A DNA stretch of 64,000 bases, taken from positions 1 through 64,000 of the forward strand of contig JAGBEG010000007.1 in NCBI GenBank assembly GCA_017937095.1. Reading direction: 5' to 3'. Position numbers and translations under genes: made by a program. The notes under the pieces are model-generated. The model had not been told where the DNA came from and did not search any database. It was given only the letters and a program-made list of their open reading frames with translations. Numbering within the stretch: position 1 is the first letter of the stretch; the number at the start of each line of letters is the position of its first letter. Origin of the DNA: Roseburia sp. Its GTDB lineage: Bacteria; Bacillota; Clostridia; Lachnospirales; Lachnospiraceae. Shown here piece by piece: positions 33,799 to 36,777 of the stretch.

Positions 33799-35337
33799 AT
33801 GAGCAAAAAACCTACAGTATTAATGATTTTAGATGGATTCGGACTGAACGATAAGACCGAGGGAAATGCGGTCGCACAGGCAAATACGCCGAACATTGAC
33901 GCGCTGATGAAGGATTATCCGTATGTGAAGGGCTACGCGAGCGGACTTGCCGTAGGACTTCCGGACGGACAGATGGGCAACTCTGAGGTCGGACATCTGA
34001 ACATGGGCGCAGGAAGAATCGTATATCAGGAGCTGACGAGAATCACCAAGGAGATCGAGGACGGTGATTTCTTTGCAAACGAGGCGCTTCTGGCAGGAAT
34101 TGAAAATGTCAAGAAGAACAATTCCAGCCTGCACCTTTACGGACTGCTTTCAGACGGCGGCGTGCACAGCCACATTACACATCTTTACGGTCTGCTGGAA
34201 CTTGCGAAGAGACAGGGAATCGAGAAGGTATATGTACATTGCTTTTTAGACGGACGTGACACGGCTCCGACCTCCGGCAAGGGGTTTGTCGAGGCGCTTG
34301 AGGCGAAGATGGCGGAGATCGGCGTCGGCAAGATCGCATCAATTTCCGGACGTTACTATGTGATGGATCGCGATAACCGCTGGGATCGTGTACAGAAGGC
34401 ATACGATGTGCTGACAAAGGCTGAGGGAGAACATGTAGAGGGCGCAGTGGCAGCCATGGAAGCTTCCTATGCAAAGGATGTCACGGACGAGTTCTTTGTA
34501 CCGACTGCAATCACAGAGAACGGACAGCCGGTTGCTACCATCGGTGACAACGATACCGTGATTTTCTTTAACTTCCGCCCGGATCGTGCGCGTGAGATCA
34601 CCAGAGCATTCTGCGCGGATGAGTTTGACGGCTTTGACAGAGGCGCAAGAAAGAACGTGACCTATATCTGCTTCACCGAGTACGATGTGACGATTCCGAA
34701 TAAGCAGGTCGCATTTAAGAAGGTTGAGCTTAAGAATACATTTGGCGAGTACCTTGCAGCACATGGAAAGACGCAGGCGAGAATCGCAGAGACCGAGAAG
34801 TATGCACATGTTACATTCTTCTTCAACGGCGGTGTCGAGGAGCCGAACGTAGGCGAGGACCGCATTCTTGTGAAGTCCCCGAAGGTCGCTACCTATGATC
34901 TGCAGCCGGAGATGAGCGCGCCGGAGGTATGCGATAAGCTTTGTGATGCGATCCGTTCCCAGAAGTACGACGTCATCATCATCAATTTCGCAAACCCGGA
35001 TATGGTCGGACATACAGGAATCCTTGAGGCGGCGGTGAAGGCGGTCGAGACTGTGGACACCTGTGTAGGAAAAGCGGTTGCAGCGTTAAAGGAAGTGGAC
35101 GGACAGATGTTCCTGTGCGCAGACCACGGCAACGCAGAGCAGCTTGTGGACTATGAGACGGGCGCACCGTTTACGGCACACACCACGAATCCGGTACCGT
35201 TTATCCTGATCAATGCAGACCCGGCTTACTCTTTAAGAGAGAACGGCTGTCTTGCAGACATCATTCCGACGCTGATCGAGCTGATGGGTATGGAGCAGCC
35301 GGCGGAGATGACAGGAAAATCGCTGCTTGTAAAATAA
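33799..35337 (+). CDS. gpmI: 2,3-bisphosphoglycerate-independent phosphoglycerate mutase
   Basis: Interconverts 3- and 2-phosphoglycerate with two Mn ions. The 512-residue alkaline-phosphatase-superfamily enzyme has MILDGFGLN at the start, the catalytic serine in [17 protein letters not shown] (about 62), and the metal ligands DHGNAEQ and [12 protein letters not shown] near the C-terminus. AGAGGAAAG precedes the ATG. Its codon bias resembles gap and pgk, unlike the capA-like gene before it, so expression is probably high. Confidence 0.96.
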
Positions 35338-35356: not shown

Positions 35357-35410
35357 GGGCTGTCGCTGTAATGCTTATGGAATAAGCGTTTGTGCGGCAG
35401 CCCGTTTGTT
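35357..35410 (+). terminator. Terminator after gpmI
   Basis: GGGCTGTCGC pairs with GTGCGGCAGCCC around an inner AATGCTTAT/ATAAGCGTT stem (35357-35403), followed by GTTTGTT. Confidence 0.75.
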
Positions 35411-35424
35411 GTCAGAACTTGATA

Positions 35425-35586
35425 AATAATAAAGCGAAAAGCAGTTCCGGGGGAGGAACTGCTTTTCTCATGTTAGGACTCAGAAAACGGGGGAAACCGT
35501 TTTCTGGGAAATCTGCCCTGTCGGCAGATAAAGAGGAGTTATATGAAATAAGATAATTGCAAAAGTAGTGCTTTTGTCCTATCTCC
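35425..35586 (-). ncRNA. Candidate small regulatory RNA with C-rich loops
   Basis: Read on the minus strand, a strong promoter (35593-35621) is followed by about 160 bases of hairpins: UAGGA(C)/(G)UCCUA closes a multiloop (35577-35581 with 35474-35478), CAAAAG-CACUA-CUUUUG (35576-35560), AUCUGCC-GACAG-GGCAGAU (35529-35511), CAGAAAACGG-UUUCCC-CCGUUUUCUG (35506-35481), and a last stem GCAGUUCC-UCCCCC-GGAACUGC followed by UUUUCGCUUUAUU, which looks like an intrinsic terminator. A single-stranded CUCCUCUUU and the two C-rich loops could bind Shine-Dalgarno sequences. No open reading frame is present. Existence is predicted from sequence; the function is inference. Confidence 0.65.
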
Positions 35587-35592
35587 GAAATT

Positions 35593-35621
35593 ATTATACA
35601 ACTGGTACTAAAGTACGTCAA
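35593..35621 (-). promoter_or_regulatory. Promoter of the candidate small RNA
   Basis: On the minus strand: TTGACG (35621-35616), exact 17-bp spacer, TATAAT (35598-35593), predicting a start at about 35586. Confidence 0.8.
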
Positions 35622-35779: not shown

Positions 35780-35809
35780 TTGACTTTCCAAAAGGCGCTG
35801 TATTATAAT
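35780..35809 (+). promoter_or_regulatory. Promoter of purC-purF-purB
   Basis: TTGACT (35780-35785), 18-bp spacer, TATAAT (35804-35809), about 90 bases before purC. No purine riboswitch core is seen in the leader. Confidence 0.7.
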
Positions 35810-35901: not shown

Positions 35902-36777
35902 ATGCAGGAATATAAGCCAGTCAAAGAAGGAAAAGTGCGTGAGGTATATGATAACGGGGACAGCCTTATCATCGTCGCAACAGACAGAATTTCAGCTTTT
36001 GATCACATCTTAAAGAACAAGATTACGAAAAAGGGTGCGATTCTTACCCAGATGTCAAAGTTCTGGTTTGATTTTACCAAAGATATCGTACCAAACCATA
36101 TGATTTCCGTGGACGTTCATGATATGCCGGAATTTTTCAGAAATGAGAATTTTGACGGAAACAGCATGATGTGCAAGAAATTGGAGATGCTTCCGATCGA
36201 GTGCATCGTGCGCGGTTACATCACAGGAAGCGGCTGGGCAAGCTACAAGGAGAACGGCACCGTCTGCGGCATTAAGCTGCCGGAGGGACTGGTAGAGTCC
36301 GATAAGCTGCCGGAACCGATTTATACGCCGAGCACCAAGGCGGAGATCGGTCTGCATGATGAGAATATTTCCTTTGAGGAGAGCGTTAAGGTGCTTGAGA
36401 AGATTTACCCGGGCAAGGGCGAGGATTACGCAGCGCAGATTCGTGACAACACGATCGCTCTTTATAAGAAATGTGCGGAGTATGCACTCGGCAAGGGCAT
36501 CATCATTGCAGACACGAAGTTTGAGTTCGGTCTTGACGAGAACGGCGATGTCGTGCTCGGAGACGAGATGCTCACGCCGGACAGCTCCAGATTCTGGCCG
36601 TTAGAGGGTTACGAGGCAGGCAAATCACAGCCGTCCTTTGACAAGCAGTTCGTAAGAGACTGGCTGAAGGCAAATCCGGACAACGAGCTTTTGCTTCCGG
36701 ACGAGGTAGTAGAGAAGACCGTTGACAAGTATAAGGAAGCATTTGAGTTACTCACCGGAAAAGCATTTGAGGCTTAA
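35902..36777 (+). CDS. purC: SAICAR synthase
   Basis: Phosphoribosylaminoimidazole-succinocarboxamide synthase joins CAIR and aspartate with ATP. The 291-residue protein has KVREVYDNGDSLIIVATDRISAFD at the start, ECIVRGYITGSGW in the middle and ADTKFEFGLDENG for the metal site, and is the longer clostridial/eukaryotic-like form. The ATG at 35902 fits these motifs and is preceded by AAGAGGATAAA; the frame is open to 35821. It heads purC-purF-purB. Confidence 0.95.
   Translation: MQEYKPVKEGKVREVYDNGDSLIIVATDRISAFDHILKNKITKKGAILTQMSKFWFDFTKDIVPNHMISVDVHDMPEFFRNENFDGNSMMCKKLEMLPIECIVRGYITGSGWASYKENGTVCGIKLPEGLVESDKLPEPIYTPSTKAEIGLHDENISFEESVKVLEKIYPGKGEDYAAQIRDNTIALYKKCAEYALGKGIIIADTKFEFGLDENGDVVLGDEMLTPDSSRFWPLEGYEAGKSQPSFDKQFVRDWLKANPDNELLLPDEVVEKTVDKYKEAFELLTGKAFEA

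Follow-up and report, generated by a model that had tools for sequence, protein, structure and literature searches.

A conserved C-rich small RNA gene beside gpmI in Roseburia, with a predicted anti-Shine-Dalgarno linker and a palindrome in its promoter

Roseburia are common human gut bacteria. In one Roseburia sp. genome, the minus strand between gpmI and purC raises the question of whether it carries a gene for a small RNA (sRNA), oriented opposite to both neighbours, and on what such an RNA would act. An initial annotation had read the region as a free-standing C-rich sRNA whose loops could pair with ribosome-binding sites. We analysed the whole stretch of 64,000 nucleotides that holds the locus (the window, to which all positions refer) and compared it with related genomes. 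The locus consists of the following elements:

33799 to 35337, plus strand: gpmI (phosphoglycerate mutase, iPGM; Pfam PF06415 and PF01676), conserved neighbour
35426 to 35586, minus strand: C-rich small RNA of about 155–160 nt, both ends predicted, seen in its fold, in 11 syntenic members and in covariation
35436 to 35467, minus strand: terminator hairpin of 13 bp with loop UCCCCC and a U-rich tail to about 35426
35481 to 35506, minus strand: hairpin 3 with loop UUUCCC, the stem kept via compensatory changes and the loop varying in sequence
35511 to 35529, minus strand: hairpin 2, AUCUGCC...GGCAGAU, its stem invariant in the six type-A members (see below)
35530 to 35544, minus strand: linker AUAUAACUCCUCUUU, predicted single-stranded and putatively the seed, with complementarity to a start region and its Shine-Dalgarno sequence
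35545 to 35585, minus strand: hairpin 1, the 5' stem, present in the fold and conserved in the three closest species only
35593 to 35621, minus strand: predicted promoter, with the -35 box TTGACG at 35616–35621, a 17-nt spacer and the -10 box TATAAT at 35593–35598
35902 to 36777, plus strand: purC (SAICAR synthetase; Pfam PF01259), conserved neighbour on the other side

The near-perfect promoter described in the initial annotation is present: TTGACG-17-TATAAT matches the consensus at 11 of 12 positions and reads as a sigma-A-type promoter. The predicted transcript, folded from 35588 to 35422, reaches -57.0 kcal/mol in a minimum-energy structure of four hairpins, as had been described, with free stretches after hairpin 1 and before the terminator. 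None of 200 dinucleotide shuffles folds as well (mean -29.1, z -8.0). The last hairpin is an intrinsic-terminator-like stem with a U-rich tail, also in line with the earlier reading.

Intergenic hairpins are common, and the same stems fold on the plus strand, which beats its own shuffles as well (z -6.2), so the possibility arises that we are looking at chance hairpins or gpmI terminators and not at a gene. Against this stand the fold score of the minus strand, the covariation described below and a directional promoter conserved in 11 genomes, and we regard it as scarcely credible.

The claim that the transcript holds no reading frame agrees with our results. The longest frame starting within it has 15 codons and overruns its end, and a minus-strand TTG frame of 69 codons starts in the -35 box, that is, outside the transcript. 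No reading frame common to all 11 members was found: a 7-codon frame recurs in the three closest species only, a 15-codon frame overlapping the terminator in two of the closest species, and the type-C pair has a 45-codon GTG frame that overruns the end.

One proposed element did not hold. A stem UAGGAC/GUCCUA closing the hairpins is absent from the minimum-energy structure; across the six aligned species, the window and G020 have it whole, G035 lacks one of its pairs, and it is broken in the other three. Although 71.4% of its cells pair, a level that 5 of 500 shuffles reach, its covariation is ordinary, with one double change equalled by 166 of 500 shuffles. This putative closing stem is not supported past the three closest species.

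We examined the distribution of the gene across the genus. gpmI was detected in 59 of 62 genomes, and its downstream side was inspected in 58 (55 further loci plus the window, G020 and G035; G070, where a contig end leaves just the N-terminal part of gpmI, was excluded). The RNA gene lies at the same place and in the same orientation in 11 of these 58 genomes, which fall into type A (G000, G020, G035, G072, G076, G071), type B (G028, G021, G023) and type C (G080, G006). TTGAC and TATAAT are unchanged in all 11 members, a figure to be read with the fact that part of the member set was collected with the pattern TTG[AC]...TA.AAT. The genome of the window holds one copy of the gene that we could find. 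Weaker sequence matches (L007–L030) were not counted as members, and of the loci L004, L007, L008, L012, L014, L017 and L018 that we inspected, only L004 (G006) is a member.

In the other 47 genomes the gene is absent or a remnant, which counts against an action in trans; 46 show neither gene nor remnant. G004, whose gpmI is 93% identical, retains CGTACTTTAGTACCAG and TATAAT with a broken -35 box, the RNA body being gone (locus L080, C109:49700–50900), and such a promoter remnant without an RNA body implies at least one loss of the gene. No trace was found at the locus of G019 (gpmI 94% identical), which we read directly. Absence was called from the promoter pattern and from the model R1 (see below) with default filters, with nine genomes, G004 and G019 among them, also read; in G034 and G082 absence is not proven, since the contigs stop early there.

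Synteny brings in the neighbour itself. The RNA is transcribed towards gpmI and has the same neighbour in the members, as would suit a cis-antisense RNA controlling gpmI by overlap or transcription interference. However, the sRNA terminator and a terminator-like hairpin of gpmI's own (about 35357–35405, plus strand, by eye), which lies past the sRNA 3' end, separate the two transcripts, and gpmI is found in the 46 genomes where neither gene nor remnant was seen. We consider a control of gpmI in cis very unlikely.

Four hairpins ending in an intrinsic terminator also resemble an attenuator, so that the RNA might be the cis-acting leader of a minus-strand gene. What follows it on the minus strand is, however, the antisense of gpmI, in the window as in the members, and no leader in Rfam matches at gathering level, an outcome that leaves standing the initial annotation, for which a match to a known leader was a point of possible refutation. 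A leader is about as hard to credit as chance hairpins.

For covariation we took the six type-A members and the 29 consensus pairs of hairpin 2, hairpin 3 and the terminator. The results show that 96.0% of cells are paired against 91.8 ± 1.0 in shuffles (0 of 500 as high), that 7 of the 29 pairs changed on both sides against a shuffled mean of 2.7 (1 of 500 as high), and that the covariation score is 0.216 against 0.130 ± 0.019 (reached by 0 of 500), although the sample of six relatives is small and shared descent by itself may outscore shuffles. Sliding the partners lowers pairing to 37–55%, and G020 alone carries two compensatory changes in the terminator stem; the slide control and this compensatory pattern agree with the covariation result for the predicted stems. 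Compensatory changes in relatives, whose absence would have spoken against the earlier reading, therefore exist. They are located in hairpin 3 and the terminator; hairpin 2 never varies and thus neither supports nor opposes pairing. A further measure, the number of further pair types, showed no excess over shuffles (383 of 500), and we count this against the trans-acting model.

A model trained on the six type-A members (R1) recovers, in 64 kb of gpmI flanks from 55 loci, all five members left out of training: G080 (E-value 3e-7), G006 (6e-7), G028 (8e-4), G021 (0.0025) and G023 (0.005). The next matches in these flanks score 0.09 (a member locus, opposite strand), 0.21 (L126; also L081, opposite strand) and 0.22 (the G004 locus). 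Run on the 62 genus genomes, R1 detected the type-C members, with E about 1e-5 per genome, and gave no match to type B at its gpmI site; 33 genomes had some match at E up to 10, and the eight below 1e-4 were all members. A match on contig C20 of G023 (E 0.0099) resembles the end of a coding region with a terminator, and we took it for chance. Among 299 genomes across the family, 10 foreign genomes matched at E up to 0.1, the best at 0.0015 per genome, which is chance level given that 299 genomes were searched. A model search over Lachnospiraceae, as suggested with the initial annotation, thus finds members within the genus but nothing above chance outside it.

Two C-rich look-alikes in other neighbourhoods, L187 and L188, were not counted as members. 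L188 lies in another genus (G293 C46:24633–24767, minus strand) and has CACUCCCCCUUUUUUU, a loop UUCCCC and CCCC in its terminator loop; by eye, it is flanked by membrane-protein ORFs (YjjP/YjjB-like) and a HAD-type hydrolase, and its model score is at chance level.

Promoter, terminator, synteny and covariation in relatives lend good support to the reading as a conserved, free-standing sRNA gene that is C-rich and has an anti-Shine-Dalgarno segment. The closing stem fails, and the UUUCCC loop, as shown next, has no significant preference for starts. We hold with high confidence that the locus is a real sRNA gene.

The signal-bearing part of the RNA is the linker and not the hairpin-3 loop UUUCCC. 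The longest conserved stretch in the 11-member alignment, AU(A/G)UAA(A/C)UCC (AURUAAMUCC), sits in the linker between hairpins 1 and 2, is present in all members and is invariant in 8 of its 10 columns. Its predicted mean unpaired probability over members is 0.60–0.96 for the linker and 0.75–1.00 for the UCC core, and CUCCUCUUU, described earlier as free, is so by prediction (mean for the linker, 0.93). The complement of the window linker, AAAGAGGAGUUAUAUG, reads as a Shine-Dalgarno sequence, a spacer and AUG. The anti-AUG triplet CAU occurs in 7 of 11 linkers (three of type B, four of the six of type A, neither of type C), and this limited occurrence weighs against the trans-acting model.

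We compared predicted duplex energies at 52 predicted starts in the window, taken from the longest non-overlapping frames of at least 120 codons with the start chosen among the first ATGs by best anti-Shine-Dalgarno pairing, with those at 407 internal sites. The linker has a median of -11.9 kcal/mol at starts against -7.5 at internal sites (p 2e-10). Reversed, it shows a weaker preference (-10.0 against -7.4, p 6e-7), and because the reversed linker prefers starts too, the preference is partly one of base composition. Both loops named in the initial annotation are present, and UCCCCC is exact in 8 of 11 members; the terminator loop pairs better at starts (-10.8 against -8.0, p 3e-4), but the preference of the hairpin-3 loop is not significant (-8.1 against -7.5, p 0.13). 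The 5' arm goes in the opposite direction (-9.4 at starts, -10.7 internally). These figures show capability and not targets, since the choice of starts favours Shine-Dalgarno-like sequences generally.

Extended target sites were not in excess: with up to 2 mismatches, AAGAGGAGTTATATGA has 34 matches in six genomes against 91 for the backwards control, and six of the 34 are the sRNA's own antisense. This lack of enrichment is a further point against the trans-acting model. Two leads emerged. A DUF4190-like protein, below the Pfam cut-off in the genome of the window as well as in G020, gives a duplex of -22.2 kcal/mol in each, and a DUF4446 protein of G020 gives -18.1. They are not exceptional, as the best of the 52 unselected window starts reaches -21.7.

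The same observations bear on another reading, in which the expressed sRNA binds or titrates a protein, for instance one of cold-shock or KH type that takes C/U-rich single strands, and does not pair with mRNA. The linker is the most conserved stretch and yet its anti-start triplet is not conserved; in the six type-A members hairpin 2 is invariant in sequence, beyond what pairing asks, which would suit a protein site; and targets are not enriched. On the other hand, the RNA offers one clear exposed motif and a loop rather than an array of repeated sites, and the linker keeps its anti-Shine-Dalgarno core in all three subgroups and prefers translation starts. We rate protein binding as unlikely, though ahead of the cis-acting readings, and an action of the RNA in trans on translation starts as probable.

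We then asked how the RNA relates to described families. Rfam, which includes models for LhrC and RsaE, gives no match at gathering level in the window or in seven member loci, and the curated LhrC and RsaE/RoxS covariance models likewise have no gathering-level match there. The best of the weak matches in the region is AS-pc01 (E 0.15), which scores 22.5 bits where the gathering score is 79; we read it as a terminator look-alike. As the initial annotation had held, the RNA is not 6S RNA: there is no 6S model match, and its four hairpins are separate.

The closest likeness in design is to C-rich sRNAs of other Firmicutes, which form a functional class of trans-acting anti-Shine-Dalgarno RNAs and not a homology family, and whose C/U-rich motif exposed in loops or linkers is found here too. 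The streptococcal csRNAs of the CiaRH regulon have, between their stem-loops, an unpaired stretch that can pair with the Shine-Dalgarno sequence and start codon, a strong promoter with the regulator's repeat, and a terminator hairpin (PMC3091779, PMC4507080). The Roseburia RNA is similar in its linker with a predicted anti-Shine-Dalgarno core, a palindrome in the promoter and a terminator hairpin. It has the UCC core of such a stretch, predicted unpaired, in 11 of 11 members; by contrast, its CAU in 7 of 11 compares with 53 of 61 published csRNAs, its palindrome lies inside the promoter spacer, and one copy was found in its own genome. The CiaR repeat TTTAAG-N5-TTTAAG is absent from all 11 promoters (best 6–7 of 12 positions over 69 bases, shuffled mean 7.4).

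LhrC1–5 of Listeria monocytogenes have an inducible promoter and UCCC motifs, held to bind Shine-Dalgarno sequences, that lie in loops and in single-stranded RNA between stems (PMC4132741). LhrC exists in five copies and is LisRK-dependent, with the responsive element upstream of -53. The Roseburia RNA shares the C-rich motif in a loop and in an inter-stem single strand; unlike LhrC, it has UCCC one to three times per member and no Rfam match. RsaE/RoxS of Staphylococcus and Bacillus has C-rich regions that pair with ribosome-binding sites (PMC4409812). The likeness lies in C-richness and putative pairing with ribosome-binding sites, whereas structure and seed differ and Rfam gives no match; RoxS is also ResDE-controlled. 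By the tests made, the Roseburia RNA is not assigned to csRNA, LhrC or RsaE/RoxS.

The promoter holds a feature that the initial annotation had missed:

35605 to 35616, strandless: GTACTTTAGTAC, a perfect palindrome of 12 bp within the promoter spacer and a putative operator

It is exact in 7 of 11 members and variant in three (G071, GTACGAAAGTAC; the two type-C members, TTACAATAGTAG), with TAC-N4-GTA kept. G023 has lost it and retains the RNA, a point against an operator. In the seven exact members, where the palindrome is 100% identical by definition of the group, identity is 45% over the 20 bases before the -35 box, 66% over the 6 after the palindrome and 37% over the 10 after the -10 box; over all 11 members it is 77% for the palindrome against 40% for the 20 bases upstream. 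Such constancy is not what one expects of an ordinary promoter spacer, and on balance the palindrome seems to us an operator.

The genome of the window contains three copies of GTACTNNAGTAC; the two outside the sRNA promoter fall within coding frames, of which one is PurD-like by eye. A 17-base pattern with at most 1 mismatch is found in nine of the 62 genus genomes, namely seven members plus G031 and G014, where it lies inside an RpoC-like frame (by eye); since the non-member matches lie in coding frames, the exact site came up in no second promoter. Nor did 12 genomes, searched with a 19-base promoter pattern that allowed 3 mismatches, reveal a second GTAC-N4-GTAC promoter common to genomes. 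A scan of genome contigs gave 22 loci, made up of five members already counted (L043, L048, L055, L057, L059), 16 judged chance from the downstream sequence, and L041, described below; one match in a viral contig was also judged chance, as were similar patterns in family genomes before a cobalamin-leader-like sequence (L134) and an RsmD-like gene (L135), both by eye. Among the matches listed, published texts contain only the 10-mer of the palindrome, in at least one case as a primer.

The search for a regulator among LexA and the BlaI-type genes of the genome established no match, which also counts against the operator. LexA is unlikely, the lexA upstream region having repeated CGAAC(A/G)TTTGTT boxes (by eye). 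Of four BlaI/MecI/CopY-type genes in the same genome, L067 and L068 carry GTCTA...TAGAC-like boxes (by eye), and the BlaI-family gene L066 (G000 C10:130814–134164) has TTACGTGCGTAG 43 bases before its start codon, with the TAC-N4-GTA shape of the sRNA palindrome. As 96 of 1000 shuffles of the upstream stretch hold such a site, L066 is a weak lead and not a rejection.

Related sites were seen elsewhere. In another Lachnospiraceae genome (L041, CACZBZ010000036.1), TTGACGTACTAAAGTACTAG-TATAAT precedes a GGDEF-like protein (by eye); its palindrome is the sRNA palindrome read on the other strand, either by chance or as a second use of the operator. Phd/YefM-YoeB toxin-antitoxin pairs (L207, G035 C1:906619; L208, G020 C64:53358; L211, G072 C18:17893), assigned by Pfam for L208 and by likeness for the other two, have upstream of them promoters of the form TTGACGTACG-N6-CGTACGC-TATAAT, whose spacer carries two CGTACG palindromes. 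These are likely YefM autoregulation sites and resemble the sRNA palindrome in letters, with a different spacing. The purC promoter spacer (35780–35809, plus strand) holds a CTTT-NN-AAAG-like near-palindrome, by eye recurring in relatives, which may be an operator.

Taken together, the best explanation is probably a stand-alone trans-acting sRNA that blocks initiation and is switched by a DNA-binding protein. The linker would pair with the Shine-Dalgarno sequence of target mRNAs, in many members also with the start codon, and thereby keep the 30S subunit from binding; the terminator loop UCCCCC may make a second contact. A DNA-binding protein would read GTAC-N4-GTAC between the -35 and -10 boxes and switch transcription; for a site in the spacer, the simplest candidate would be a repressor released by a signal, and the sRNA would be the dedicated output of that regulator.

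More speculatively, GTAC-N4-GTAC could be the operator of a regulator that has the sRNA as its only or main target in Roseburia, the RNA being all that the regulator puts out and damping translation initiation in general, in the manner of csRNAs, in a module quickly lost and rewired between species. We offer this wider proposal as a doubtful one; the literature matches listed hold no parallel for such a regulator-plus-sRNA module.

Among the matches listed, no Roseburia sRNA is described in a title or at the start of an abstract, and a paper on bacterial small RNAs in stool names Roseburia once, in another context. New here are a conserved C-rich sRNA gene in Roseburia without an Rfam family and a conserved palindrome in its promoter; the functional kind is already known. 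As an sRNA candidate with phylogenetic support, a promoter and seed that are predicted and an operator that is likely, the locus offers an entry to its regulator and targets. If the proposed action is true, csRNA-like anti-initiation sRNAs would exist in Lachnospiraceae too.
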